Assembly: GCA_002964805.2 (NCBI GenBank)
Contig: PUDQ02000001.1
Span: 62,001 to 126,000 of the forward strand
DNA: 64,000 nucleotides
Source: Trametes villosa
Lineage: Eukaryota > Basidiomycota > Agaricomycetes > Polyporales > Polyporaceae
Direction: 5' to 3'
Shown piece after piece: positions 2,150-52,100 of this stretch. The notes under the pieces are model-generated. The model made no database searches, had not been told where the DNA came from, and worked only from the letters and a program-made list of their open reading frames with translations. The position numbers and the translations under genes are program-made. Every line of letters starts with the position of its first letter. Within the stretch, counting starts at the first letter, position 1.

Positions 2150-2341
2150 CAGCAGTACCTGTTAGGGCCATGCTTAAGTCTGGAAGTGGTCGGGGTTGAC
2201 AGCTCCGAAGTACAGAAAAGCGGAGCTCCGAACCCCAAAGGCACGGGAAAGCAGACCTGGGCTTCGGACGTTGGTATTGTTGGATATAGCGGAGCAAAGG
2301 TCCAAATGGAGGCCCACACAAAAGAGGGCTTCATTGAAGCT
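2150..2341 (+). repeat. Dispersed repeat R1, copy split by the fold-back element
   Basis: Second copy of R1, similar over its whole length to the inverted copy at 4701-4935. It runs up to GAAGCTA at 2336-2342 and resumes at 3152 with TACATCAGC. The 4701 copy reads straight through this point (GAAGCTACATCAG on its minus strand), so this copy was interrupted by the element at 2343-3151. Confidence 0.8.
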
Positions 2342-2342
2342 A

Positions 2343-3151
2343 TTAGGAATGCCAGAGGCCCTTGCCACTTGTCCTTAGATTTCAGAGGTGGACAGGTCCG
2401 ATGTCTGGAGGTGCAACACTAGAATGTCAGACTTACCGGACTAGAAAGGTTGAAGCTACCGGACAACAAACAGAGGAAGCGGAAGAAGTAGATTTGCAGG
2501 GAAGTAAAAGGAGTGTACAGATGCAGAAGTAAATGACATGGGTAATGGGTCAGCGAGATATCCGAACTGAGTAGCTACAACATATCAGCTACGTATATAT
2601 AGACTACGTGTTATGCCCCGTGCGACCTCCGACACTTGCGGACTCAACTCCGCTTTTGGTCCGCTTTTACTCCGCTTTTGGTCCGCTAAGTCCGCTCTTA
2701 TCGGACTTAACTCCGCTTACTCCGCACTTATTGGACTTCAACTCCGCTTGTCCGACTTTTGGACTTACTTACTCCGCTTTTCCGCTTCTATTCCGATTAG
2801 AACAATAGTCTTATTGTCTTCCCCAAGTTCCGACTTTATTCCGCTTTTACCTTCCTTATTAGTCCGCTCTTATTGTTGTGGCATAACAATTGGCTCGTAG
2901 TCTATATATACGTAGCTGGTATGTTGTAGCTACTCAGTTCGGATATCTCGTTGACTCGTTACCCATCTCGTTACACCATCCCATTTATCTATACACTTGT
3001 TCTACTCCTCTCCACTTCCTCCGCTTGTCGTCCGGTAGCTCCGACCTTCCTAGTCCGGTAAGTCCGACATTCCGGTGTCAGACCTCCGAACATCGGACCT
3101 GTCTACCTCCAAAATCTGAGGACAAGTGGCAAGGGTCTCTGGCATTGCTAA
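2343..3151. mobile_element. 809-bp fold-back (MITE-like) element with TA target duplication
   Basis: The two arms, about 2343-2617 and 2880-3151, are long imperfect inverted repeats of each other. The left end begins TTAGGAATGCCAGAG and the right end is the complement of TTAGCAATGCCAGAG. The dinucleotide TA lies immediately outside each end (2341-2342 and 3152-3153), matching a TA target duplication. The centre (about 2618-2880) is rich in CTCCGCTT-type words and contains no ORF. TA duplications and long terminal inverted repeats are known for Tc1/mariner- and PIF/Harbinger-type non-autonomous elements. Which transposase mobilised it cannot be told from the sequence. Confidence 0.8.
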
Positions 3152-3153
3152 TA

Positions 3154-4162
3154 CATCAGCAAACGGGGAGCTTCAGTACAGTACACTACAGTGCGCGATG
3201 AGTGCGATAGCGTACTGTCAGCGCCAATCGTACAGACAGGCGCCGACCGCCCCCTGTAATATTCCATCGCACCGTCCGGGTGGCTGTAACTTACAAGTGT
3301 ATCGGGCGAGGTGCTATCAGCCTCTACCTCACCCCGGCCCAGACGACTGTGTACTGTAATGAGATGCATCACAAACCCTGATTTTCTACTCACATATTGA
3401 CGAGCCTGCGTCCCAGTAGAGGTTCATACAGGTTTGCACCACGGCCGGACACTATGCGTCGCGGCGGGACTGTTCGAAGAGATTGTATATTGCGTATTCG
3501 ATGCCCGCCGGGCACTGGCCGCTTGATCGGTGGTCAACGTTCAAGCGGTTACCGGAGTCAACCGTCTATAAGGAAATGCTGGATTGTCTAAGCAATCGGT
3601 GCAGGGCGCATGCGTTTCCCAGCCTCCTACCGTCGCTCAAAACGATGAAAGACTGTTTACAGTTGTTTCCCTCGAGAGCCCCATGAGACAGCGCTTAGCC
3701 TTCGGGGCCATCCCCTGCTCAGCGGGGTTTCAAACACCTTTCCTTCGCCCTATGCCTACATAAACGGGTGCTTCTTAGCTATCTCTCCTGACTACCTACC
3801 ACCATTGTCGCCTCCTCTATCGACCCACCTCCCTGACTCCCTGTACTCCAGGTCAGTCCTTCAGCTGAGATGTGTGTATGCACTCATACACTTGCGAACC
3901 TCACCCCTAACGCGCATATACGCGCACTGCTGACGCACCCCGAGGGCTCTGACTTTCATTGACAGGTTGCGTCTACCGGTGCTCGGGAATCGGGTCACAA
4001 CAGGTGCGCAAATGACTTCCTTTAGGCGGGCCCGTACTAACTTGGATTCCTCAAGGCTCACGTTGACAGTGACATGCGCCGCTGAGGCCGTCATGTGTTT
4101 GATCAAATGCCGGTGAGTTGTCTATTCGCTTGTGTAAACCCGAATGCTGGTGGCGTGCTCGC
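3154..4162. other. Gene-free segment
   Basis: After about 25 bases of resumed R1 repeat, no supported gene or family was recognised on either strand. Short ORFs are present but have no domain features. Confidence 0.5.
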
Positions 4163-4305
4163 CCGCGGCTCTGTCCCCTTCTCTCCCCCGGCTCTGTCCC
4201 CTTCTCTCCCCCGGCTCTGTCCCCCGGTTCTCTCCCCCGGCTCTGTCCCCCGGCTCTGTCCCCCGGCTATGTCCCCCGGCTCTCTCGCCCTTCCCTCCCG
4301 CCCCG
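4163..4305 (+). repeat. C-rich minisatellite
   Basis: Tandem, slightly varied copies of CTCTGTCCCC(GG) and CTCTCCCCCGG follow one another about nine times. All three forward frames read through it as Ser/Pro/Leu-rich ORFs, as expected of a repeat without stops. It is not evidence of a gene. Confidence 0.85.
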
Positions 4306-4700
4306 TGCTGCCCAGCATCGGCTCAGATCCTACACATGTATATATACTGTGGTGCATTGTAGTAGTTTCCCTAATATATTTGTTCGTTTGCGATCATGCC
4401 GTGTGAGCTGAGTGAAAAGCGAAGCTAGAAACCGGCGTGTACCGCTGCTAGTAGTACCAGTAAGGTGAGCCATGCGCTATAGTCCCAGGCGGCGAGATTA
4501 CATCGTACTACAGGGCTCCCACCCGATATGATTGGGAGTTATAGCGGCGGGGCCGGTATGATTGGGTATTGTAGAGAGCGCCGGTGTGTTGTAGCGTACT
4601 AACACCACTGGCCACTGGATGGTAGCTTGTCATCTAAAACTACTAGCATTTTAAGACATTATGAGAACTATAGTGTAATATACTGCACTACACTAAGTAT
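4306..4700. other. Gene-free segment between repeats
   Basis: Nothing recognised: no coding exons, no tRNA-like cloverleaf signals. The sequence is A+T-richer than the flanking C-rich array. Confidence 0.5.
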
Positions 4701-4935
4701 GGCCAGTTCACTGATGTAGCTTCGCTGAAGTCCTCCCTTGTGTGGGCCTCCATTTGGACCTCCGCTCTGCTACATCCGACACGTCCGACCTCCAAAGCCC
4801 AGGTCCGCTTTTCCGCGCCTTCGGAGTTTGGAGCTCCGCTTTCCCGCGCCTTCGGAGTTTGGAGCTCCGCTTTCCCGTGCTTCGGAGCTGTCAACTCCGA
4901 CCGGTTCCGGACTTAAAGCCTGCACGGCCCTAACA
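4701..4935 (-). repeat. Dispersed repeat R1, inverted copy with the empty insertion site
   Basis: Inverted copy of R1 relative to 2150-2341. The block TTCGGAGTTTGGAGCTCCG occurs twice in tandem (about 4820-4870), so this copy has an internal duplication. At 4717-4718 it carries the single TA into which the fold-back element is inserted in the sister copy, followed on the minus strand by CATCAGTGAACTGG. It therefore preserves the pre-insertion sequence. Confidence 0.8.
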
Positions 4936-5190
4936 CTACGAGCTAATTGTAATGCCACAACAATAAGAGTGAACTAATGAGAAAGGTAGAAAGTGGAATA
5001 ACATCGGAATTTGGGAAAGATAATAAGGCTATTGTTCAGAAGGGAAGGATTTGGAATATAAGCGGAAAAGTGGAGTAAGTAAGTTCAAAAGTCGGACAAG
5101 CGGAGTTAAGTACAGTAAGTGCAGAGTAAAAGCAGACAAAAAGAAGAGTTAAGTCCAAAGGTGTCGGAGGTCGCACGTGGTATAGCAGCA
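4936..5190 (-). repeat. Second repeat module R2, related to the centre of the fold-back element
   Basis: Read on the minus strand this stretch parallels 2618-2890: a GTGCGACCTCCGACAC start, a series of CTCCGCTT / TTACTCCGC-type words, then CTTATTGTTGTGGCAT and GCTCGTAGT. The module is therefore present both inside the fold-back element and directly beside R1 here. One end resembles TGYTATRCC and the other GGCATWACA, so a solo-LTR-like origin is possible but unproven. Confidence 0.6.
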
Positions 5191-10061: not shown

Positions 10062-10090
10062 GGCGGTCGAGTACTAGCAGCAGTAGAGTA

Positions 10091-10472
10091 CACCACCGGA
10101 TGACGCCCATATGCCCCCCATATCCAGATCTGGTATCCATCAGATATGCACGCCGATATAGGCTGGACACCGGGCCACATATCTGACAGACATCTACCTT
10201 AGACTATGGCCATCAGATATCCACGCGGCGCATACCGGCTCGGCCTCCCGTGGCATATGTATTGGATGTCGTCCGCATATCTCACGGATGTCGGGCGCCG
10301 GATATGGGAGAGGTGCATTTCATGCCCGCGCGAACCCAGCATTCCGGGATTGCATACGCGCATTTGCGTCCCAGTATATAAAAGAACATTCACACTGCAG
10401 GTAGTGGGACGGACAGAGAACACATATATTTCTTTGGTAGTACTGGAGATGCATATTCGACATAAGGAGATA
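10091..10472. repeat. Left terminal inverted repeat and ATAT-rich subterminal region
   Basis: Positions 10091-10107 are the terminal inverted repeat. From 10108 to about 10315 at least eight words with an ATAT core in GATAT/CATAT context occur in both orientations (for example near 10109, 10120, 10142, 10155, 10180, 10216, 10254, 10277 and 10313). A strong TATA-like word, GTATATAAAAG, lies at 10374-10384. On the plus strand it points into the element, antisense to the third gene. Confidence 0.75.
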
Positions 10473-12184
10473 TTAGGCACTCGCGCCGCCAGCGCCCATA
10501 CCGCCCGCGGCAGCGTCCGTTCCGTCGACGGTCAGCGCGGTCGCGCGTGAGTCGTCGTTGGCCTGCGTGGTTGCGCCCGGCGCGGGGTCGTTGAGGCCGG
10601 TGAAGCCGAGCACGAGTTTCTCGATGTTGGATTGCAGCTGGGGAAGAGCTTCGTTCGTGTACACGGTGCGCGCCATGGCGCCGGACTTGAGCGGGTATTC
10701 CTTGACGTCGTTCTCCAGGACGCGCGCGATGAACCTGGGACAAATCAGATGTGTATTCAACACGGCGCGCGAATGACGTACATGGTTTCGTGCATCTTCC
10801 GAGCCTTCGGGTCATGCGGATGAGCGTCTTGGGCACTCTGGCGGACGTCGAGGAGGCATTTGTCGATGTACTTCCAGTATTCCGTGCGGCTCCGGGTCGG
10901 CATCTGGTAGAACATGACAGTGCAGCGACGCTGCGCAAGAAGATACAAATCAGATCAGATCAGAGCATCGGCGTCCGTGAGATCTCACCAAGAATGCAAA
11001 CCGGCCCCAGTGTTCCTTTTTCGGGCGCATGTCGTACATCATCAACGCCGTTGTGAGATCGTAGATATCTTGCTTGTTCTTGATGCTCGTTTCGATCTGA
11101 GGCCAGGCGAATGTGAGTGCACGCGCGAGGTCCACGGCATTGAGACAAACCTTGAGCTTCATGTTCGAGCGCTGGCCGGACAGCTCGCCGACAATAGCCT
11201 TCTTGACGACCTTCCAATCGGCCGGGTCGGCCTTCTGGGCACTGGCGACTCCGAGGAGATTTTCGGCGTTGTCTTCGAGGTATTTCTGCGAAAATCAGGT
11301 GAGTCAGGCGAGTCAGAGTGTACGAGAGCTCGTCAGATCTGACGCACCGTGAACTGAATGGTGAGCCCATCCAGATACGTGGGGATGCTCGGCGACAACA
11401 ACGCAGCAGCGACGATGTGCTGGAGGCGGACCTGGTAGAACGTCAGGTATGAAGACGACGCCCGGGTCGCGATGTGTGGTCAAACGTACTTGAAAGTCCG
11501 GATGACGTACGAACAAGCGCATGAAGCGCATGATGATATCGTTGTCGGTGCGCATCTGGTGGATCTTGATGTCAATCAGCATTCCAACTGGCGTTAACTG
11601 GGAACACGTGTCAGTGAGCAGGTCGTCGGACAGGCGTTGTTGGCTCCCAGTTACTCACCTCGCAGAACTCCAGCAGCTCGGTCTGCTGGTACACCTGCAG
11701 GCCATATTTGCGGGCCTTCTGACGGACGATGTTCTGGTAAGTGCCGCGAGAGTGGGTGTCAGTGTCGAACACCGCCTGTTCGGCATCCAAGTCTTCCTCT
11801 GAGAAGACCCAAACAAGGCACCCGTTGAGCTTGGGTAACCGGTGAGTGATATTTTATAAATGTCGCACCCATCATTGCACTGAGGCCGGCTATGGTGTTT
11901 GTAGTCCTGGCGTTCGCGGCCTCGTCATCGAGGTCCATCGCGAAACTGTCATCGCCTCCGGCAGGGCTCGGCCGCCCGTTGAGGGGAGTGGTAAAACGCT
12001 CTGCGGAGGTGATGTCCCCGTTCTGGGTGGACGGCGTGCTTGCGCGCGAGTTGTTCTGCGTGGAAGCGGCCGTCCTGCGACCAACACCAGGAGAGAGAGA
12101 GAGCCCGTCCGGGGAAACGGCCTCGCTCAGACTCGGCGGAGTGAGGTTGAATGCAGAGAGGAGATCACCCATGGATGCCGACAT
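10473..12184 (-). CDS. Transposon-borne protein of unknown function (third gene)
   Basis: About 450 residues from seven exons; introns have GT-AG ends and keep frame. The N-terminal ~100 residues are Ser/Thr/Pro-rich and probably disordered (MSASMGDLLSAFNL start at 12184). The rest is mostly helical: EEDLDAEQAVFDTDTHSRG, NIVRQKARKYGLQVYQQTEL, MLIDIKIHQMRTDNDIIMRF, RLQHIVAAALLSPSIPTYLD, WKVVKKAIVGELSGQRSNMK, MKLKVCLNAVDLARALTFAW, then DIYDLTTALMMYDMRPKK. The tail ends in a Gly/Ala-rich stretch. I do not recognise the family and see no zinc-binding, nuclease or helicase motif. Alternating basic and hydrophobic helices could suit DNA or partner binding, but that is a guess. Lying inside the inverted repeats, on the same strand as the transposase-like gene, it is probably part of the mobile unit. 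A TATA box at 12334-12340 fits its own promoter. Confidence 0.8.
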
Positions 12185-12333
12185 GATGCGTGAGGAAGGA
12201 TGGGAGGAGTGGTTGGTGACAGAAGAGCGGTGAGCATGCGCGGTGAAAACTTCCACTTTCATTGTCCGCCTCTGCTGACTCCCGTTCGTCCAATCAGTCT
12301 GCTCACGCTGTTTCAATGCCAGCTTGCCTCCCG

Positions 12334-12340
12334 CTTATAC
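12334..12340 (-). promoter_or_regulatory. TATA-like box of the third transposon gene
   Basis: GTATAAG on the minus strand, about 150 bp upstream of the start codon at 12184, within the 229-bp spacer that follows the transposase-like gene. Confidence 0.5.
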
Positions 12341-12413
12341 AACAGTCGCTATGATAATAAGTGTGACAGACTCGGTGAGTGCAACATATGAGCTTCGTAT
12401 ATAAACAACATTA

Positions 12414-15400
12414 TTAAGAGAACAAGGCTCGGAATTCAGCCTCTCGTGCAGCCGTGGCCGTGGCATCTGCCTGAGCACGAACTCGGGGTCGCTTGCGCGG
12501 AGGGCCCGCAACAGACGAGGACGGTTCAGCGTCCGCATGTTGAACGGCTGACGGTCCCCCTGAAGTGCAAGGAACGTCTGACGGTTCCTCGCGCGCGTGT
12601 ATGTCCCCCGCTCGCGGTGTTGCACCCGCCCCCGCTTGCGGTGTTGCACCCGCCCCCGCTCGCGGTGTTCCCCCTGCCCCCGCCCCCGCTCCTCCTCCTG
12701 CCGGTGAACTATGTAAATACACTATTACTGGAGAGCTCCGAGTATCCACCGCCTCCCCTGCCCTGCCGGACTGTCCGCTACCGCCCGATGTAAGTGATGT
12801 GCTCCGTGCCCCAACTCGGGCACTGGTTCGGGTTGCCCCGCCGGCGTGCTTGGCGGCACTCTTCTTCTGCCGCGGTCCCCTTGGGACAGCCACTCCCAGA
12901 CGTTGGGCAGCCGCCTCCTCAGCCTGACCTGGTCGGCCCGCCTGTGCGTCCCGCACAACGTTCGCTGTGTGATCCGGCTCCACATGACGAACAGGCATGC
13001 TGCTTTGCGAAGGGTCCGAGTTCAGATGCGGAGGCGGCGACTGCGAGTCCACTGGATTGCACGTGGTGCCTTCGCCTTCGTGCGCGACTATCGCGGTATC
13101 AACGCTGAGCGGCGCATCCTCCGAAGAGATGACCGGCGTGTTGGAGTCTGACAGGCCGAGAAGATCAGTGCCGGGGGTGTTTGCGCTGGACACGCTCGCG
13201 CGTAGAGCCTGCTCCGCGTTCTTGCGCACCAAGGCCTCACGCGCTAGCTTTTTCTGAAGCTTTGTGTCGCGCAAGGACTCAGCAGCGCGTTTGTGCAGCG
13301 TGGGACGGTCGGCGAAGAAGTTCGGTTGTTGAGATAGGGATGGGGGGAGACTGGCTTGGAGGAGAGATCGATTGTGGAGGGCGGCGAGATTGAGAACATA
13401 ATGAATGCGGTCACTATGGTCGACGATCTTGCGGGTGCGAGAACTGGATTCGCGTTCTTGGCGCAGGTGTTGCGTCCCTGACGCAGAACAGCGGCCCTTT
13501 GTGCAGTCGTGCTGAACGTTTACCACAGCCACGATCCTCTGCAATCTCCAGTATCAGCGCTGACGATGCGAACGTATCCACCAAGTTGAGCGAGCAAACC
13601 TCAGCAGGGATGACCTGAATAGACCCAGTGCGATGTACTCTGGGCATCTTGAGGTGCGTATGCGGCTCGGCCTGCAACACGGAGTCGCGTACGACGACCC
13701 AAGACCCGTGCTCCCGAGGTGACGTGGACCGCAGGATTTCGACGATTGAGGCAAATCGCGTCGCGTTCCTGTTTGCGACCCCATTCGGGTGCGTGTTCAT
13801 GGTGCCGTTAGCGTGCGCGTTTGCAGGTGCGTCGACGGTGTCATTCGCGCGGGCGTTCGCGGGGTTGCTCGTGTGCGCGCTCCCGTTCGCGCTCCCATCT
13901 GCGCGCGCCGCCCGCGCGTCCGCGAGCGTCGTCCAGTTGGCGTGCGTGCTCGGGTGCGTGGTACCGGTTGCGGTTGTGTTCCCGTTCGCGTGCGCGCGCC
14001 CGTTGGTGCTTGCGTTCGCGGCGCCGTTGGTGGCCCTGTACATGCTCCCTGTCTCGGTCCCGTTTGCACGCACACACGCGTTCGCAGGTGCATTTCCGCT
14101 CGCAGCAGCGTTCCCGGAAGCGTGACTGTGCGCGGTCGTGTTCGCGTGCGCGTGCGCGGTCGGGGTCACGGTCGCGGTCGCGGTCGGGGTCACGTTCGCG
14201 GTCGTCGTCGCGGTCGCGGTCGCGGTCGTCGTCGCGGTCGCGGTCGCGGTCGTAGTTGCGGTCATCGTCGCGGTCGCGGTCGCGGTCGTAGTTGCGGTCA
14301 TCGTCGCGGTCGCGGTCGCGGACGCGGTCGTGGTCACGGTCGTGGTCACGGTCGCGGTCGTGGTTGCGTTCGCGGTCGTGTTCGTGACCGCGTGCATGGT
14401 CGCGTCTGCAGAGCCCGCTACGCGCGCGTGTACCGTGTCTCGCCCCGCTGTGCCCATGCCCATGTCCGCGTCCGAGTCCTTTCCAGCTCCTCCGGAGTCC
14501 GCAGCGTCTGCGGGGCGGATCCGAATGATGACTTCAGAACCGATGGCCGCCTGGTCGCCGTTGAGGGTAATTACGGAAGCTGCCCGATGCCAGCGTCCAG
14601 CTAGAGGAGTGAGGGAAGGTTGTAGCGCGGCCGTTGTAGTCTGTGACCACGAGACGACTGGATGCTGCGGGGGCGGCTTGCCCGGCTGGCGGGGAGGCAG
14701 TGGAAGAAGGGTCATGTCGCCAGGCGTCAGTGTCTTCTCTGTTGCCAGCCCCAGCAGGCGTGCGTCTATGGCGCTCTCCGTGACGTGCCGCATGACGTCT
14801 TCCCCGGCCTGTACCCAGTCGCCCGTAGCCTTGTCTTCCCAGAAGCCGCCCGAGAACATGTGTCGACACCGATCCTGATTCGCAAAGGTCTTGGCGATAT
14901 CACGGCTCGGGGCCTGGCGATTGCTGTGAATGGAACAAAGCCGGAAGATATGATTGAACGATTCATATCGCTCTGTAGAGAAGAGAAGGGAGGGCCCGAA
15001 GCGTTCGATGTGATCAGGGAGATGAACAAGAATGTGGAATTTGTTCTTCTCGGTGAGAAGGCCGGGGCTCAGAGACGCCGCGAAGTCCATCGTTTCTTGG
15101 ATGACTTCCCGAAGCTCCTTCTAAGGACGGTCGACAAGTCATAGGCTATGAGTCGTCTTGAATGACGCACATGAACTCAAATACATACCGTGTATTCCTT
15201 GATATCCCCGATCTCAGTTTCCCAGATGAGTGCAGTCAAGCGGCCGACGGTGACCCAGGTTCGCTGGAGGGTGTCCTCAACGAGCCCGCAGACTGCAAAT
15301 GCCATGACCTGGCTGATAGTCTTGAAGTGTTTGCCGATGAGCGCACCGCTGTACCTGCACATGTAATCGGCGAGGATGTTCGGGATCTTGAGTCCGTCGC

Positions 15401-18145
15401 GCGAAAGGCTATTGAGACGAGCTTGAAACTCGACAAACTTGCCCTGTTTCCCGAGAATCCAGACCGTCTGTGCCCAGAAATACTTCACGACACCCAGCAG
15501 ATGCGTGTGGAGAGGCTCGACAGGGGTGTCTCGGTGAACGTCGACGCCTGTCGAGGAAGATCATTGCTGTCAGTAAGCTATTCTGAGTGGGCGTGACGTG
15601 CACGGTACCTGGCATATCCAGCAACGGATTGCGAAGCGGAACATCCTTTTTGGACATCAGATCCTCGTAGAGTTCGCGATTAACCATTTCAGGCGAGAGC
15701 GCCTTGCGCGCCGGCGTAGAGCGGCGCAGAAGCTTGCCTTTCGCGATGAGCTGGTTCAAGACAGGCATGGCGAACGAGTCTTTGACACCACTCGAGGTGA
15801 TCGCCTGCTTCACAGGCTTCTCCGCGCTGGCATGCGTCGCAGCCACGAGCTGCGATGTGATCGCTTCTCGAGTTTCAGTAACGGTCCGTGCACGTCCGGC
15901 CTGGGAAACGCAAAGAGTGTCAGCACACCGCCGCCTCATGACCACCACACCGGCAGGGCGGCGGACATACCTTCATTAGCGATGCGAAACCGTCGTTGGA
16001 AGTCTTGTATGCCTTATCGCCACCCGTGTGACAGGCCCGACAGAAGTGATTGCCCTGGAGACCAATATGGCTACAGAGCTCGGCTTGCATAGGGTTGTCG
16101 CCGGGCAGGAAAAGAATCCACGGTCGGATCCAGACGTGGCGACGCTTGGAAGCATCCCAGACCTTGAACGGACCCGTTTTCCTATCAACGCCGTCAGACA
16201 GTAGCTTGACATCGGTTCACAATGTCACTAACCTGAGAGCCTCGCAGATCGCCCTGATGATCTCCATAGGGGATGCGTGAGGGGACGTCGCGACGAAGCG
16301 AATGTTGCAGTCCTTCTCTAGCTCTGTTCGTGGGAGCGCGGCGTTGGAGACGTAACACGAGTAATGGACATTCCATTGCTTGCTGCTGTTCCCCGACACG
16401 TCGTCGATGAAGACCACGAGAGGCGGACACTCCACCTCCAGCCCCTCTGCGAGAGCACGGTCAGGGTGCGGCATATGTGCGGCGAGTTGGGCACTGTGAG
16501 CTGCATTGCGCGCGCGGAGATTTATCAGCCCAGGGTTCCATTTGTTCGCAAGCAATACTATGATTGGTACTCACGTGCGAAGAGGTTGCGACCAAGGCTC
16601 CGTGCTTGTATCTCGGGCCAGGTCAGCCGGAAGCTCGTGCATGGCACGAGGCTCATCTGGTCGGCGACGACAAGACCGTCCTAAACGGGTGCGAATGATC
16701 ATCAGAAGGTGGCCTTTTGCGCGGCGCAGAACCAAGAACTCTTACCTCTGTGTCCGTCGCCTTCTGCACCTTGGCCCAAAGGGATCCTTCGAACTCGAAG
16801 TACCGCTTCGGTATGCACCAGGACTTGTCGGCGCAATACGCGAGTTCATTGATGTAGAAGTCTTTGCCGCGGATTCGTACCATCGGAGTGAGCACTTCGT
16901 CCGGCGCGTCGAGCAACCACTTGCGTGCCTGCCAGGTCTCGCGCACGCTCGCGCCGGTAAATTGCGGGAATAGATGCATCTTGCGTCGTTTGTTCTCGTC
17001 CGCGTAGTCCTGCAAACACGATCAGCGTGAACGGGGTGTAAGGAGACGATGAGCGCGTACCTGAGCCAGCCCCTTGTGTATCGAGTTCATGTAAAAAACA
17101 TTCCCAGAGGAGGCGACGACCTTCTCAGTGGGATCCCCGACGGCTTTGAGGGCTTCAGCCTGGAACTTCTCGAGTCCATACAGGCTAGGGACGTCCCTTG
17201 CACCCATGTCCTTGCCCCATGCGAGGATGGCTTCCTTCTGAGACCGAGAGAATCGTATAGTTGGCGAGCTGAAGAGGATGTCGGATTTCATCATCTATAA
17301 CAGACATTATATTCAGCTGATCGTCTACCGGCACACCCGCTGAGAGAACGTACACCTCGATCCGGGTATGGAAAGATATTCCTCGCTGGGGCAGACGCGC
17401 CGAAGAGTGTTTGCGTGATTTCTTCGGCGGATGCTACGGGGCGGTCTATGAAGGGCGCAGATTTAAGTACTGACATTGTACGCGCGAACGCACTTGCTGC
17501 TCAGTACGCACCTGAATGAGTCGTCTCGGGCATGGTGGGCGTCCACTCCGAGTCCAGTTGTGGCCTCTCGTCTGCGTCGGGATCCATGACGGCCTCTAGC
17601 AGGCCGGCACCACTCAACACGTCCTCGAGAGTGACCTCAGAGACCCCGTTTGGCCCGAACATCTCACCACAGGAGAAGTCGACGGCCCCGGAGATCGCAT
17701 CCTGCATGTCCAGGGGCCAAGAGCGCGGATCCGCCGTGACGGGTTCGGGATGGTCGAATACAACGGGCGACGGCTCAGCGAGTGTTTCCTCTTCGCAAGC
17801 CGGAGCGGTGAACCAGGGGATGGACTCGTTTCTTGCGGGTGGGTCCTCAGGGCAGTCTTCTACGTACGCTTGCAGCGGCCGTCTCGCCGCAGGCTGCTGA
17901 GGAGCAGGTCGAGCGCGTCGACTCTCCCGCTGGATAGCTTGAGCGACCTCCTCTTGGTGTCGCTTTTGCTTTTCATGTGTACGGAGGTTCCCCAGCTTCG
18001 TCCACGCGCCCTGACCCTGGCTGCATAGCTTGCAACGCCCGATACGGCCTGCGAGTTCGAAATCTGCAGCGAAACCGACGGGTTCGCACAGTGTCCTGAA
18101 CGGAGGCGAGGAGCGCGTACCTTGGGGCCGTTTGAGGTTAGGCAT
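12414..18145 (-). CDS. Large transposase-like protein with N-terminal zinc finger
   Basis: Twelve exons (18145-18121, 18063-17512, 17469-17354, 17294-17061, 17009-16746, 16680-16575, 16500-16233, 16181-15971, 15900-15609, 15547-15189, 15120-13600, 13538-12414); every phase agrees, giving 1690 residues without a stop. A C2H2/BED-like finger sits at C19-C22-H38-H44. Blocks of a protein family expanded in basidiomycetes follow: VPDEVLTP-type region near 345, VVFIDDVSGN (about 461-470), LPRTELEKD, FLPGDNPMQAE (546-556), HFCRAC (567-572), DTPVEPLHTHLLGVVKYFW (697-715), and TERYESFNHIFRLCS (859-873) with APSRDIA. By analogy with CACTA/TNP2 and Plavaka transposases I infer an RNase H-like core, with acidic residues in IDD, GDN and TERYE as candidate catalytic positions. 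The C-terminal third (about 1000-1690) is low-complexity, with an Ala/Thr tract at 1050-1135 and a basic end (PPRKRPRVR). Confidence 0.85.
14138..14400 (-). repeat. GCGGTC hexanucleotide array inside the transposase-like gene
   Basis: Tandem GCGGTC/GTCGTC hexamers with slight variants, in the largest coding exon. The array length keeps frame on the minus strand and encodes alternating Ala-Thr residues (about 1050-1135). The other strand reads Arg/Gly-rich or Val-rich long ORFs that are by-products of the repeat. Confidence 0.85.
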
Positions 18146-18323
18146 TGCAAAAGCGCAGAGAGACGGATGAAAAGCAAAGGAGATGAGAACGAGAACGAGG
18201 AAGAGAACGAGGGCGAGGGCGAAAACGAGAGGAGTGGAGAGGAGAGGAGAAGCCAGGGAGGCGACGTGCTGCAGCGCCACCACGTCAGTCGTGCAAGAAG
18301 CCACACCAAGGGCCCTGTATCGA

Positions 18324-18331
18324 GTATATAC
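18324..18331 (-). promoter_or_regulatory. TATA-like box of the transposase-like gene
   Basis: GTATATAC, about 180 bp upstream of the start codon at 18145 and inside the 268-bp spacer between the companion and transposase-like genes. The spacer suggests separate promoters rather than one transcript. Confidence 0.5.
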
Positions 18332-18413
18332 AGGAGCGAAGAGCACGTCCACAACTGCTCACTAATACTGTAATCGTTGGACACAGCATACATCCCAGCG
18401 TACATTTGAATGG

Positions 18414-19566
18414 CTACATGCGGCGGCGTTTCCCAGCTGCCTCTCTCGGTCGGAGCGCGGCCTCCTCGTCGCTGGACACAACAATGACATCTCGTGCAGT
18501 ATCCACGCCTACTCGCTTACGAGACCCAGAGGACCTACGTTTACTGGTCAGCAGAGCGAACGAAAAATGGGGACGAGGACAAACCTCTGAGCTCCGACAG
18601 GTGTGCTGGACTTTGCCGAAGGTTCGCGCGGGGTTTTGGGGGTTGAGCGCAAAGACGTCGCTGCGGCCAACCCAACACCCTCGGAGGGATCGCCGGAGGC
18701 GCGCTCGCGCTCGTGCGGGCGTGCACGCCTATGGGCGTGTGCGAGCGCGCGCGGAGAGGGATCGGGCGCGGGCGTGCTTGTAGGCGACACCGCTGCAGCA
18801 GGCGTAGGCGAGCGAGAGAGCGGGGCCGCGTGAGCAGCGGCGGACGGGGGCGCGGGGGCAGCCTGCCCACAGGACCAACAGAAGGCGCGAGACCCCACCG
18901 TGGGCACAGGCGGCAGTGGTATCTCCAGCTGAGATTGCTCAGTCGGGTCGAGCACAACGGGGTCCTCGGCAACCACAGCGCGCACCGCCGCCAGTTGGGC
19001 CATGACCGCCCCGTAGGCCGCCTCCACTCGTTGCAGGCGTCCGACCTCATCGCGGAGAAACTCGTTGTCGGTTTCGAGCTCGTTGTAGTAGTCGCTTAGG
19101 TGACTATTGTCTTCCTCTTCGTCCGCAAGGGGCGCACCAGCTGCATGAAATGACGGTCAGTGGCACGGCCCTTCGGCGGAACCGGAATCCACTCACCGGG
19201 CGCGACAGGAGATGCTGGGAAATCGTCCTTGAGGGCGTCGACATTGTCTAGCAATCCGTGACCTTATTCGGATCAGCGGGTTTGACGAGTATTCGGAGAA
19301 AGAAGGCTGACCAGCGCGGGGGGAAACCTCGCGGGTGAAGGAGGAAACCCACTGGGTGTCTGAGGTCTGAGAGTCGAGAGGCCCGCCCGGCGCGTACAAA
19401 GCGCTGTTCGATCGGTCAGCCAGGTCATCTTGTACACAATACGCACACAAGTGCCTGACCTGGTGCGACGCGTGCCTACATGAGACATGCGCGACGGGCG
19501 CGGCTGGCTGGTTGATGGCTCCGCGAGGAACGAGGGCTGGGAGTCCTCGTAGTCGCTTGATGACAT
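18414..19566 (-). CDS. Coiled-coil companion protein of the transposon, with SUMO-interaction-like motif
   Basis: Five exons give about 313 residues. The start MSSSDYEDSQPSFLAEPS at 19566 leads through three short introns (two begin GTCAG) to SALYAPGGPLDSQ, then DNVDALKDDFPASP, then the main exon. That exon contains an acidic segment (ADEEEDNSHLSDYY) followed by a predicted coiled coil, NELETDNEFLRDEVGRLQRV and onward, a CWSCGQ pair of cysteines, and a long Ala/Pro/Ser-rich stretch. A final 50-nt intron joins STPVGAQ to RSSGSRKRVG. The C-terminus carries DVIVVSSDEEAAL, which matches the hydrophobic-then-acidic pattern of a SUMO-interacting motif, and ends in the basic KRRRM. No known family was recognised. 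An acidic, coiled-coil, non-catalytic protein beside a transposase recalls the accessory proteins of CACTA-type elements; that role is inferred. Confidence 0.75.
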
Positions 19567-19901
19567 CGTGGGCGTTGGCTTGTGGACGGAGGGAGAGCAT
19601 GGGCGCGGCAGGCTGGCCAGTCAACAGGACAGCCAGAGATCACGAGATGCGAGGACTGCGAGCCATGTATTGAGGGCATATCCATGGGACATCGCGGCGG
19701 AGGTCCATGGTACATAGGAGCGCGGCACATAGGATGGATATCGGGCCAAGGTCCAGGGGATATAGATACGTGGCTATTCAGATATGCCCTGGGAATATAC
19801 ATCGGATATAGAAGGCGATACGCGCCCGATATCGAATATGGTATCTGACCGGTACCGGCCGGGGGCTATATCCACCGGATATCTGGCCTCACCCGGTGGT
19901 G
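19567..19901. repeat. Right subterminal region and terminal inverted repeat
   Basis: The terminal inverted repeat is 19885-19901, ending GGTGGTG. From about 19676 to 19885 roughly ten ATAT-core words (GGATATCGGG, GATATAG, CAGATATGCC, CGGATATAG, CGATATCGAATATGG, GGATATCTGG and others) are spread in both orientations, as at the left end. The promoter of the companion gene must lie within this region. Confidence 0.75.
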
Positions 19902-20054
19902 TAGCAGAATGATGAATGACGTTGTTGCCCGATTGGTCAGGTCTCGCAGCACGCCCTCTCGCTCTCCCTCTCTCCTCTACCTGCACCACCCCCTCGCACG
20001 ACCGACCGAGCGGCGGGGACAGGCTCGCGCACGACCTCGACGACGACCGCGACG
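19902..20054 (+). promoter_or_regulatory. Residual UBR1 promoter / 5' region
   Basis: About 150 bp remain between the transposon end and the UBR1 start codon. A GATTGG word (inverted CCAAT) lies near 19931 and a pyrimidine-rich stretch (CTCTCGCTCTCCCTCTCTCC) at about 19957-19976. In the pre-insertion chromosome this joined the TRS33 upstream side, making a short divergent promoter of about 180-190 bp. Confidence 0.5.
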
Positions 20055-39800: not shown

Positions 39801-42535
39801 GCATCCGCTGTCAGACGGCGGACGCCGCAGGGGCGCCCGCGGGCTAACAGCCAACAGACCATCACTGAAATCGCCGTTAACTGATGTCAGCGGACGTATC
39901 TAAATTATCACCAGCTCCCCGGCCGGCGTGCGCACCAAGTTTAAAGTGTGCGGACGTAAACGTGGACGCGCGCCTGGGCCCTGTATGTGCGTGTGCTGGG
40001 ACGGAGGGACTTCCGGATACGGGCTAGGATGGCGCTGATCACGCCCGCCCAAAGCGGAAGGCATACGTGTCAGGCGGAGTGACGCGATGACGTTGCCGCG
40101 TCTCCCTGCGAGTGAGTGCCTCGAGTGCTCAGTGCACGCATCTTGCCTTACCCAGCCCACGGCGCGTGCACGAAAGGGGGTCGAATTGTGCGGGCCAGGC
40201 GAGCCCACTCGGCTGTCCTGGCGCCATGATATGGAGGCTGATCGTCCTCGCCGGCGTGCGGGTGGTGGTGGCCTTTGCGAGGCGGCGCGGCGGAGATGCG
40301 ATCGCGCGCGGACGGCGGCGAGTTAGGGACGCGCGGGCGGGAATCTTGCGGCGTCGAATAATATCGCTGATAAGTGTCTGCAACTCTGTCTTGCTGTTAG
40401 CTGATGACGACGATGAACAGAAAGACGAGACGGGCGTGGCGAGGCTGGCGTGGAGCGGGATGCGCTGCGCGGGCAGTGATCGCACGGCCGGGAACACGGG
40501 CCTTCACAACAAAGGGGCGGGAGCTGTGGGCGCACTGCGCAGAGACGGACATGTCATAACGAACTAGGCAAAAGGGGACAAGTGCGGTAAGTAGGGGAGG
40601 GAGCGTGTGGGTGCGGGGAGGGACTATCAGAAGGCGAAGAGCCGGCGTCGAACGTTCTGCGCACGCTGGATGGAGAGGGGGACGAGTGAAGGGGGCGACG
40701 CGCGACAGGGCAGGCGAGCGCGAGCCGAGGTGGAGGACAGGCCCCAGCGACATCCGTGGCCGTCGCCGGAATGAGATGAGAACTTCGACCTGGAGACGTG
40801 CGGCGGTGAATACGAAGACAGTGCCCGGCCGAAGCTGTCTCACTCCCAGTCCCACTGAGCGAGCCTGGCGTCCGGAGGAACTAATGATGGGAGATCGCGC
40901 GGTGGCCGTTAGGAGGGATTAGAACGTGAGTCACTCGCGAAGACAATTGTAGGCGGCGGCCAGTAGATTACTCTGAACCCGAGCCAACAGCTGCGGCACG
41001 CGCGGGGGAGTCCATCCACCGAGATGCTGGGCCGGAGTCCAGCCTGCGCACGAATACAGCCCGCGGGCCACCGAAACCCAGCTCCGCCCGATCCGACAAC
41101 GGCCCCGGATCGTTCCAGTCGGCGAATTATCCGCTGACATCCTCCCATATATGGTTTCCCACCTACCGTACACGGCCGGATGCCGTCAAGAACGCGCCGG
41201 GCCGAGACGTTTATCCAGCGAAACGGGCCACGAGGCTCTCATCGCGCTGCTGACGACGCTGGCGCCGGATGTTGTCTCCTGCCCAGGCTAAGGTAAGACG
41301 CTAGGCGGTCCGCCGCCACTGGACGACGGCGACCGCGAAAATTGCCTGGGAGGGAGAGCTAAGACCTTCATCCGAGCCACCGCCGCCGCGACAGGCGCAG
41401 CCGCTCCATCCGGCCGCACTTGGGCGGGGGCGCGACTCACGCGCACACGGCTGGCGGCCAAGGCTTCGGAGCTCGGTGACGTCCTATTATTTTCGCGCGT
41501 GCGCAGGCGGGCGCTGAGTGAGACAAGTTCATTCATTAGCCAGAGGGGAGCCGGGCTAGCGCGCGTGCGGACGGGGCGGCGCAGACGGACAGGTCGGGAC
41601 AAGTTGCGGTGGCCACTGCCAGCGCCAGGGGCAAGGACTCTGGATGTGCACATGGCTCGGCGGCGGACAGCGCAGCGGATTTGGCGGAGGCTGAGTGAGA
41701 CGGAAAAACGGTGAGGATGGCGGTAAGTTCTGGGCCGACATATCAGGAAGTAAGCGTGTTACGAGAGGGCGACGGCGGCAGAGAACGCAGGCTGGAGTCG
41801 CAACACGAGAAGGCACGCCCAACTGGCGGTTTGCGACGTCGGATTCGGATACGGATATGGGTTCGGAGACACAACGTTGCCAGTCCTTGCATCGCGCATC
41901 GCACGGCCGCGCGCGCCTCTGTGCCACCCACGAGCGATGGGCGAGATGAACCTTGTGCGGGTCCCCATCAGTCGGAAACCCGGATTATTCTGGGGGTATG
42001 TCGCGCGGCGCGGGTGCGCAGCGCAGAAGCGGGCTGCCTGTTCGGGGAGGCTGCAGCGGTAACGTGACAGGAAGCAGGCGAGAAGCCGTCAGGTGGCCCA
42101 GCGGCGCGTCCGGATTAGGGCGAAAGGGGGGGAAAGGTTATGGGGAGTGGGCGGCTGGGGGAGGCCGGGGAGGAGCCGGGCGGGGAGAAAAGGGGATGGC
42201 CGGGAGGGAGAAAGCAAAAGGAAGAGGAGAAAACGGGGGCGGGGCTCGAAAAGAGACATCGCAGATTGATGGGGAGGGCGGCCGGAAAAGGCAGGGGGGC
42301 CCCTGAGTGGGGACGGGGGGATCGGACGGGACGAGTGAATCTGGCGTGTGCCGGGAGGGGGTCGGAGCGTCGCGCGGGAGGAGGGATTGCCGTTTGGGTC
42401 TGTCTGGATTGGGGATGTGCCCACAAAATTGCGGTTACCGTCCGCGAGTGCTCACATCCTCCGTTCCTTTTTAAAATACTCGCCCTCCTTCGCAGCCGTA
42501 CCGTAAGCTGATCACATTTCATCCTACTCCTACTT
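33838..42535. other. 8.7-kb region without recognisable protein genes
   Basis: Between the divergently oriented CHS7 (-) and cyclin (+) genes no exon with recognisable coding character was found in either strand. ORFs exist (for example 34341-34946, 34950-35708, 38751-39422) but are low in family features, overlap in several frames and lack consistent splice partners. The sequence is G+C-rich and not obviously repetitive. Words resembling splice donors and acceptors (GTACGT, CTTACC, GCAG) are scattered through it, so spliced non-coding RNA or long 5' leaders cannot be excluded. Confidence 0.5.
42118..42365 (+). promoter_or_regulatory. Purine-rich block with many G-runs upstream of the cyclin gene
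   Basis: Nearly all purine on the plus strand with more than fifteen runs of three or more G, for example around 42124-42132, 42160-42190, 42230-42245 and 42290-42320. It lies about 170-420 bp upstream of the cyclin start, at promoter distance. It could form G-quadruplexes or bind purine-tract factors. A TTTTTAAAATAC stretch follows at about 42468-42479. Confidence 0.5.
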
Positions 42536-49152: not shown

Positions 49153-52100
49153 ATGTCGGACCGCAAGAAAAGAAAACTCTCGCCTGATTCCAGTGCCGCA
49201 TACACCGACATTCAATGTCCGTACCGCCCTTCTGATCCCACCTGCCTCTTCTCTCACCCTCTCTTCCGGTCCTCCAGCTCTTCTCGTTAGAATCAAACCC
49301 AAACTCGGTGCAAACCATCCGGACTACGCACCACTTCGCACAGATCTTCTCCATCTTGCCGCCCTCGCCGAGTCCTGGTCCAAACACCGCCCGCGTGCCA
49401 AGAAGGACGACAAATGGGCGCAGCGCGCGGACGACTTGGATCACCAAGGTTAGCTCCAGCCACTCTTCCCGTCCCTGGCCTCGCTCCCAGCCCATCTCCA
49501 CCCCGCTTCACAGGTGTCACGCTATGGAACGCGTCTGTCGTACAGCAGGACGTCCCAGACGACGCCTATCGCGCGGTGTGCGCAGCCAGTGCGTCCCCTT
49601 TCGCTTCTTTTCTCTCACCGTCCATATCGGGCTCCGGACGTCAGTGAGGCTCGCCGCCTTCCGCCTAATCGAGGCCGGGATGGAACACAAACCGGGCATT
49701 CAGAGTGAGCCTCGTGCTCCGTCCTTCCACGCGCAGACACGCGCCGCTCACCTCCGTCCGTTCCCATCAGCCCTCATTCACGTTCTCCAGCTCGCTAGCA
49801 AGGCCGGTGCCAGCTTGGCAGGTCCGTTCCCGAATCCAACTCCGCACAATGAATGCCTGACAACGTGTGTCGCTCACACTCACGTACACAGACGTAGGAG
49901 ACGTCACCCTGGCTGCAGCTGTCCTCGGCTCGGCCGCTAAGGTCGTGTTCTCCGCTCTTCCCCTTCCAGCTTCCAGGAGAGCGCGGGCTGACAAACAAGT
50001 AACCTAGTACGCCGACTCGCTAAGAGCCGCCGAAGACCCACAGGACGGGCATGCTCAGGCGCGGGCGCGGGCCATAATCCTGTACTACAGCAGCCGCATG
50101 GAAGCCGTAAGTGGCGCCGCATCCTACACTCTCCGGCATCGAGATGACTCCCAGTGACAGGCGTATCGAGAGGGTAATGATGGCGTCGCCGACTTCATGT
50201 TGGAGAAGGTCTCAGGTGCGTCCTTGTCAGTCCGGTCCAGAGCACACAACTACATGTGCCACCGTAGAGAGCGATCAGTACCTTTCGCTTCTGACCCCAT
50301 CCGATGTGAGAGCAGCTGTCTTGTTTGAATGCATGCGGTCACTAATACATATACGCAAGCGGAGAACACTAGCCGGAAAATTACTGGGGATAGGCAAGAG
50401 CATGTTGCGATCAAGTACACCAGCCGACACCGCTGGGAATGGTGCACGGGATTCCGTCAAATGGATCCAGCGGGCCTTCGCGATCATCGAGCCACTCGAG
50501 GACGCGGCCGATGCCGGAGATGGTCAACTGAGGGTAAGTCGGCCCTCATACCAGTACTCTACTGCGGCAGTCTCACGCAATGGCCCATCAATAGCGATCA
50601 ATCCTTAGAACACTGGGTAAGTGGCTGCTGCAGATATCTATCTCTGGCTTGTCGGATGAAACTGTATGCCGGCCGCGCACGTGTGAGCAGCACGAGCCTA
50701 CTTCCTGTCATCGGGTCAAGATCCAGAGAACCTGGCCAGAGCAGAAGCATCTCTGCAAGAGCTCATTGACTCCGTTGACGCCTCCATGGATCACGTAAGT
50801 CCGCGCGCGGGGGATACCGCTATCTGACCCTGACAGCTGCTCCAGACCTCGCCGGAGTACCAACAGCTTCGCTGGATGAGGGTCGCCATCCTGAAGCGAC
50901 GCAAGGCGCCGCATGCTGCCCTTCTCGACGGTAAGTTTCATTGCGATGGGATAGGCTCCGGACGCAGTCGTCAACCCGGATACCACAGCATTCCGCTCCA
51001 TAATCGATCACATGCAGTACTCGGAGAATACCATCACGGAGTATGTGTTCCTGTCTAAGATTACCACGTTGGATATCCTGACATATCTCACGGAAACTCG
51101 GAAGTATTCTACAGGAGCTCAGAAGCCTCGGACATGACCAGTTACGTTCGCGCCTCACTATCCCCACGTCTCCATCACGTGTGCTGACCTGTTCTTATCC
51201 AGCGGTCTAGTCACCGCAATACACTCGCATTGCCTGAGGCGAGCATTCGAGGCCCAAAATAGCTCGGGCCTCGTTTATCTGGACCGCCTGCTGTTGTCAT
51301 TGATCTACCACAGTTCGAAAGATGACGACCATGCGCGGGCGATGCAAGACCTCACGTCAGCGCTAGACCGTAGGTGTATTGACGTTTCTATTCGCTTTCC
51401 GGAGCTTATCCAGCGAGCGCGCGGCACTCAGTCATGGACGCCAGGGAGTACGAACTCCCAAAGATCCCGACTACAGCCTGTCTAACTGTAAGGTCCGCCT
51501 GCCACGTTACGTTACCGCTCCCTGATCAGCCTTCAGTTACTCTGGCAATTCGGCGATCGGCACTACCACGCCAAACGCTGGTCGGACGCCGCCGACTGGT
51601 TTCTCGTCGGCACGCATCGCGTGTTTGGGTCTATGGCGCACATATCGAACGCGAAGTGCCTCCGCAAGGCGGCGTTATGTTATGTCCAATGCGGCGAACA
51701 CGCACACGCATCTGCGATCATCCGCCGCTGTCCACCCACGGACGCGGCCACCCATTATGTCGCGTTGCTGATTGCGGCCCATCAAGGTGAGATCGGACCT
51801 GATAGTATCGCATTCAGGCCCTGAGTACGCCGCTTCCAACAGGCCTGGAGGACGAAGGCACGTCGTTACGTCTCAAGGCACGCGGCTCTCACCGATCAGC
51901 TCTCGCACAGCCGTTGCAGCGGTACGGGAGATGGTCCACGCGTCTAACTTCAACAAGAAGATGCTGCTGCTCGCCACCCGGCTAGCGAATGAATCCGGCA
52001 TGAAAAACCTGCTGCTTTCAGTGCTAGAAGCGCTCCTAGAGGGCTCGGTGCGGGAGGGCGTGGAGGCCGAGGCGGAAGCTATCACGCTCGTTCGCTGCAT

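Follow-up and report, generated by a model that had tools for sequence, protein, structure and literature searches.

Positions 10,091 to 19,901 of a 64,000-nucleotide stretch of the Trametes villosa genome (contig PUDQ02000001.1, positions 62,001 to 126,000; hereafter the window, whose numbering is used throughout unless a contig handle is given) hold three genes, here called A, B and C, between short inverted repeats, and raise the question of whether this segment is a mobile element and, if so, of what kind. The first-pass annotation, made from the sequence alone, had proposed a complete three-gene DNA transposon, and its ends, its copies and the co-occurrence of its genes indicate that this proposal is real and correct in substance. 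Adding the conserved catalytic pattern, the predicted fold and the strong selection on B to this evidence, we conclude that the segment is very probably an autonomous cut-and-paste DNA transposon of the CMCT clade, from an Agaricomycete lineage with TA-CACCRCC ends and a RAG1/Transib-type transposase, B.

Ends of the element and its copies in the genome

Direct reading of the window places the 17-bp inverted ends, identical at 15 of 17 positions and with TA on both sides, exactly where they had been claimed. As a chance control, end pairs in the window with flanking TA and a spacing of 0.5-20 kb were scored; 49 pairs reached 13/17, and three scored 16/17, above the transposon's own 15/17, two of them in an inverted-repeat region at 2.3-5.2 kb, where several more pairs tie with the transposon, and one at 439-1041. 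Because other TA-flanked pairs score as high or higher, the terminal repeat by itself is not decisive, and the bounds were decided by the same ends at two paralogous copies, C10 and C64, not by the repeat score. The cluster of inverted repeats at 2340-5190, with several TA-flanked pairs of 15-16/17, and the pair at 439-1041, whose ends are 0.6 kb apart, look to be other repeats, lying left of the transposon.

When the 46.7-Mb assembly (140 contigs) was searched with the DNA of the whole element, two loci besides the element itself and low-complexity matches were found to match genes A, B and C in order. The tip search gave full elements there, at C10:790557-799625 and C64:476773-486008, with TA on each side; TA was no criterion of the tip pattern for these two, and was one for the three elements described next. 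Protein search detected genes A and C solely at the window, C10 and C64 loci (E ≤ 0.001). The central exon of B matched 14 loci, 11 of them other than these three and at 34-43% identity. Ends were established for three of the 11: C20:245384-255639, the best TA-flanked pair with a score of 12.5 (next 8.7; 0 of 6,238 control pairs reached 12.4); C16:288319-295819, a perfect 15-bp repeat (score 15, next 7.7); and C3:1850205-1857299, a perfect 19-bp repeat located through the motif of C20 and C16. The six elements have the tip CACCRCC in common, in the form CACC..GGTG, and TA precedes 12 of their 12 ends, 6 of which are ends where the search required it. Equal flanks of 3 bp were found at 0 of 6 elements, and equal flanks of 5 bp also at 0 of 6. 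Further copies with the same ends thus exist, so the lack of any, which the first-pass annotation had named as grounds for giving up its proposal, was not observed. Comparison of the 3-kb flanks of four elements (window, C10, C64 and C20) gave no similarity from one locus to another; the copies occupy unrelated places in the genome.

The proposed ATAT-rich subterminal zones are clear in the window copy, with 10 ATAT in the first 300 bp, 10 in the last 300 bp and 20 in the other 9.2 kb, whereas the terminal zones of C10 (2 and 2) and C64 (4 and 5) have fewer, so the ATAT richness is strongest in the window copy. Words of the type GATAY/RTATC number 14 and 9 per terminal 300 bp of the window element, against a window mean of 0.83, with 4 and 6 at C10 and 6 and 10 at C64.

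A lone TACACCGCCGGGTGACCCC end was seen at C3:2675, near the contig start, and its subterminal 79 bp resemble C64. The segment C3:1-2693, which includes this end, has a short reading frame and GGAGACAAGG-type repeats inside and is a possible non-autonomous relative. A partner end, sought with up to 2 substitutions in the contig's first 4.2 kb, was not found there, and the whole-element DNA search listed no match at this end. Two more tips on C3, at 1360310 and 1843359 (3 mismatches, matching each other), were rejected as ends, since both are within a repeat whose similarity extends beyond the motif on both sides.

Gene B and its catalytic pattern

Gene models built from the DNA with GT-AG introns gave three minus-strand genes, in agreement with the initial description of three co-oriented, intron-rich, intact genes. 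In all three close copies B is free of internal stops, with a length of 1,688 (window), 1,400 (C10) and 1,561 (C64) residues; the models of A and C are approximate, with some splice sites set by hand and an ambiguous last intron in C.

An alignment of 42 homologues, chosen from the 120 listed below, gave the pattern D-D-C(2)C-H(3)H-E (Table 1). The predicted model of one homologue, P0002, has a RAG1/Transib fold with an RNase H core; its nearest solved folds are RAG1 and Transib, and it aligns over about 460 residues of RAG1 461-1007, where sequence identity is about 10%. Motif and predicted fold together mark B as a RAG1/Transib-type relative. The suggestion of an RNase H core in residues 430-880 thus agrees with the pattern and with the homologue's model, whereas the nearest folds are RAG1 and Transib, and the 42 homologues match no Pfam transposase family. 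Residues 1-1008 of the window B match no Pfam model, and nothing relevant was returned by Pfam for the exons or the A, B and C proteins, or by sequence-profile searches of the PDB with B, its BAH-like part and its conserved C-terminal part. Beyond the catalytic core, the C-terminal part of B (QHDC, residue 1323 of the window protein) contains another conserved block, in which C, H and N residues are invariant and which in the window copy follows a low-complexity Thr-Ala stretch.

Database search gave 383 homologues of B at E ≤ 1e-3 (clusters at 90% identity), 120 of which were listed; the best matches come from Trametes, and we take the genera listed to be all Agaricomycetes. None of the 120 listed is named a transposase: 116 are hypothetical or uncharacterized (two also 'SAP domain-' in UniRef), one is nameless, and three from Rhizoctonia have misannotated-looking names (membrane protein ycf78, valine-tRNA ligase and dynein heavy chain).

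Between the three close copies, the core of B is 77-83% identical, with a nonsynonymous divergence (dN) of 0.12-0.17 and synonymous sites near or at saturation. These sequences indicate old lineages, each kept by strong purifying selection. Because the synonymous divergence is nearly saturated, the transposon may have been active long ago or at a low level.

Partner genes A and C

The three genes, expected to co-occur within the copies, do so at the window, C10 and C64 and are together again in Trametes: in T. pubescens A, B and C have the consecutive locus tags 2101, 2102 and 2103. As separate proteins, three homologues of A and three of C were found, all from Trametes. An A-type domain lies inside 19 of the 120 listed B homologues when the profile is made from the window, C10 and C64 copies of A, and inside 21 with a wider profile (20 of 40 proteins of at least 1,300 residues, 1 of 80 shorter ones), although this second count is weakened by a profile built partly from the same proteins that it counts. 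They include proteins of Athelia, Ceratobasidium, Rhizoctonia and Hygrophoropsis, and are either real fusions or merged gene models. In the Cerioporus protein P0011 the order is C-B-A, which is the transcription order of the window. The distant C20 element has three weak collinear A-like pieces (E 0.0025-0.11) on the strand opposite to B. A genome query with a distant A domain gave no match and, having been run without a positive control, is uninformative.

The C-terminus of gene C, at about 18414-18500, reads VIVVSSDEE, IIVVTSGEE and VIVLTSSDG across the three copies, followed by a basic tail. We take this motif to resemble a SUMO-interacting motif.

Features, insertion sites and neighbouring repeats

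Table 1. Coordinates of the element and its parts in the window
Feature	Position	Strand	Basis or remark
Complete DNA transposon (very probable), 9,811 bp	10091..19901		inverted ends, TA on both sides, two full paralogues with same ends and genes
Left terminal inverted repeat, CACCACCGGATGACGCC	10091..10107	+
Right terminal inverted repeat, reverse complement CACCACCGGGTGAGGCC	19885..19901	-
TA adjoining left end	10089..10090	+	target duplication, or fixed outer part of end
TA adjoining right end	19902..19903	+
Left subterminal zone	10091..10390		rich in ATATC/GATAC-type words
Right subterminal zone	19602..19901		rich in ATATC/GATAC-type words
Gene A (approximate model), element-encoded partner	10473..12184	-	7 exons in model; gene model and 3-copy alignment
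Gene B, predicted transposase, 1,688 residues	12414..18145	-	12 exons in model
B, N-terminal finger-like segment (CKLC...HEKQKRH)	17950..18063	-	approximate bounds; alike in three copies; no Pfam match
B, BAH-like insertion, residues 314-437 (with introns)	16463..16973	-	mapped from residues 193-316 of P0002 model
B, D457/D458, predicted first catalytic aspartate (FIDDVSGN)	16400..16405	-	42/42 aligned homologues
B, D542, predicted second catalytic aspartate (GDNPMQ)	16097..16099	-	42/42 homologues
B, C561 and C564, C(2)C	16031..16042	-	42/42 homologues
B, H830 and H834, H(3)H	15022..15036	-	42/42 homologues
B, E851 and E854, candidates for last catalytic glutamate (STERYE)	14962..14973	-	39/41 and 41/41 ungapped rows
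Gene C (approximate model)	18414..19566	-	MSSSDYEDSQ start, VLDPTEQSQ block, C-terminal VIVVSSDEE...KRRRM; gene model and 3-copy alignment

In the window, the candidate start codon of the left neighbour (10061) is 29 bp away from the element, which lies upstream of it. At C64, a dehydrogenase-like reading frame (C64:476756) begins about 16 bp downstream of the element, and at C10 the element is surrounded by repeats; an insertion preference is not inferable from just three sites. The right neighbour, from 20056 onwards, starts with ATG and presumably encodes a protein resembling a UBR-box ubiquitin ligase; the element lies between two divergent genes. Around the C10 element there are three direct copies of an 850-bp repeat (C10:785376-786220, 789294-790110 and 800903-801778; 82-88% identical), which were examined as a source of an empty site and yielded none. 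At C11, 750-bp inverted repeats of 79% identity (41339-42089 and 50578-51330) surround a distant B copy and are probably nested insertions of another family; ends are not claimed there, the region being dominated by these long repeats.

Alternative readings

According to the part of the source available to us (PMC12730594), the CMCT clade has D-D-E transposases with C(2)C and H(3-4)H between the second D and the E, 5'-CA..TG-3' ends and target duplications of 2-5 bp, and the members so studied have a RAG1/Transib-like catalytic fold. The same part gives 3-bp duplications for fungal EnSpm, 2- or 3-bp duplications and TGT..ACA or CATCA..TGATG ends for Plavaka, and, for ESTA (Kojima 2025), an EnSpm-like group described from rust families bearing a TET/JBP gene, TA duplications, HHpred similarity to RAG1 and the pattern D-D-C(2)C-H(3-4)H-E (PMC12730594). 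The window family has this catalytic pattern, CACC..GGTG ends with TA as a probable duplication, and a predicted RAG1/Transib fold. We therefore place it within the CMCT clade, whose definition it matches, Plavaka and EnSpm having failed on ends and Pfam models. Of the CACTA-like layout first proposed, the CAC-type ends and subterminal arrays stand, whereas the TA sites and the RAG1 likeness make ESTA, not CACTA, the nearest described lineage, and the family is possibly an Agaricomycete branch of ESTA. That it is simply an ESTA member extended to Agaricomycetes, with nothing new beyond host range and partners, falls a little short of an even chance: TA sites, RAG1 likeness and the catalytic pattern all fit, whereas no rust is named among the 120 listed B homologues (of 383) and ESTA, in the part of the source cited, was described from rust families that bear TET.

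An ordinary fungal EnSpm/CACTA or Plavaka element is unlikely. CAC..GTG-type ends and subterminal repeats do recall EnSpm, and the CMCT motifs occur in both, but the ends are CACCRCC with TA, none of the six elements has the equal 3-bp flanks of EnSpm or the TGT or CATCA ends of Plavaka, the Pfam searches above matched no such family, and a comparison by eye of the 144 listed genome places of Plavaka PF18759 with the 14 B copies showed no overlap. Still less probable is a domesticated three-gene host locus whose terminal repeats are relics. Strong purifying selection on B, the lack of recent copies and the position of two of the three close copies just upstream of a start codon would suit it; three paralogous full elements, three distant ones with matched ends and unrelated flanks at the four loci compared argue against it, as does C10 B, whose identity to a T. 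pubescens protein (79.5%) exceeds that to the window copy (76.5%), though the window and C64 copies are closest to each other (82.6%).

Several results weigh against the transposon reading or its parts. At C20, two CA-start pairs without matching flanks (14.8 and 13.7) outscore the accepted TA-flanked pair (12.5). Complete ends were found for 6 of 14 B copies, with a single end near a seventh (C58); no clear ends were found at C11, and the pattern search, the sole search made there, found no tip near C3:2436251, C38, C77, C57, C31 and C54. In this one genome, whose three close copies are near synonymous saturation, no empty site, strain polymorphism or recent copy was seen, and the TA might belong to the ends as their fixed outer part. 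The predicted model of gene A has a predicted local distance difference test score (pLDDT) of 37.8 and no trusted fold. B perhaps has a built-in histone-reader-like (BAH) domain, as 11 of 50 VIA rows fall within residues 193-316 of the single predicted model of P0002, but their Z scores of 6.3-7.4 overlap those of the unrelated helical rows TorS and TTYH1 (6.3-6.6) and lie in the tool's 'possibly just a common arrangement' range, and the Foldseek BAH match is to one chain (E 0.29, probability 0.99). The Pfam BAH model matches two genome places, neither of them a B copy, and no B homologue, and sequence-profile support for the insertion was found neither in these Pfam searches nor in the PDB profile search.

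Proposed mechanism and meaning

For the transposon, we infer the cleavage chemistry, the duplication of TA and the functions of the two partners and the BAH-like part as follows. B would bind the transposon ends, aided by the subterminal GATATC-like repeats, and pair them; it would then cut through its D-D-E RNase H site and insert at TA, giving the TA duplication. A and C would be element-encoded partners, probably for end binding, assembly or regulation, and the BAH-like insertion, if real, may read nucleosomes, for insertion-site choice or for action on silenced copies. A bolder and decidedly tentative reading would see a large unrecognised Agaricomycete lineage of RAG1-type transposons, in which a BAH domain, placed between end-binding region and RNase H core, gives the transposase a histone reader of its own. 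Chromatin reading and cutting, split between RAG1 and RAG2, would thus be joined in one protein, while A and a SUMO-binding C would complete the transpososome and direct insertion towards promoters.

With these results, 383 database entries, nearly all of those listed being hypothetical or uncharacterized, can be assigned a probable function and a physical element whose ends are defined, which opens the family to masking, dating and testing as transposons. Fungal RAG1-like systems gain a wider range, a transposase with a possible built-in chromatin reader becomes a testable case, and the conserved partners A and C offer a simple genetic system for the roles of accessory proteins in CMCT transposition.

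Comparison with known systems

In literature outside subscription journals, preprints and Repbase, none of the matches listed for RAG1/Transib in basidiomycetes, for CACTA/EnSpm/Plavaka/ESTA in fungi, or for fungal BAH domains together with transposase, Plavaka or RAG1 describes the B family. What is added here is a definition of the ends from six elements, a predicted RAG1/Transib fold, a possible BAH insertion in B and the finding that the partners A and C are conserved.

The likeness to Transib and RAG1-RAG2 lies in the predicted fold of B-type proteins and in the spacing from the second D to the first C, which is 19 residues, as between D708 and C727 of RAG1. Unlike those systems, which make a 5-bp target duplication, the window family has TA; no RAG2 was seen, and the reader-like part is inside the transposase, whereas RAG has a PHD on the partner protein. 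Plavaka (PF18759) is likewise a basidiomycete CMCT transposon, with a similar D-x-P-x-Q ... C(2)C block; hhalign of B with a single Plavaka exon gave a probability of 0.6%, with D and C(2)C in register. It differs in its TGT or CATCA ends and in a Pfam model without a match to B, and both families are present in this genome. EnSpm/CACTA elements have CAC-type ends, subterminal arrays and an accessory protein in common with the window family, which differs in having CACCRCC instead of CACTA, TA instead of a 3-bp duplication, and no Pfam transposase match. Compared by description, ESTA has the same TA sites, RAG1-like transposase, D-D-C(2)C-H-H-E pattern and CMCT membership, and, in the part of its description available (PMC12730594), belongs to rusts with a TET/JBP gene, whereas the window family belongs to Agaricomycetes and has the partners A and C and a BAH-like insertion.

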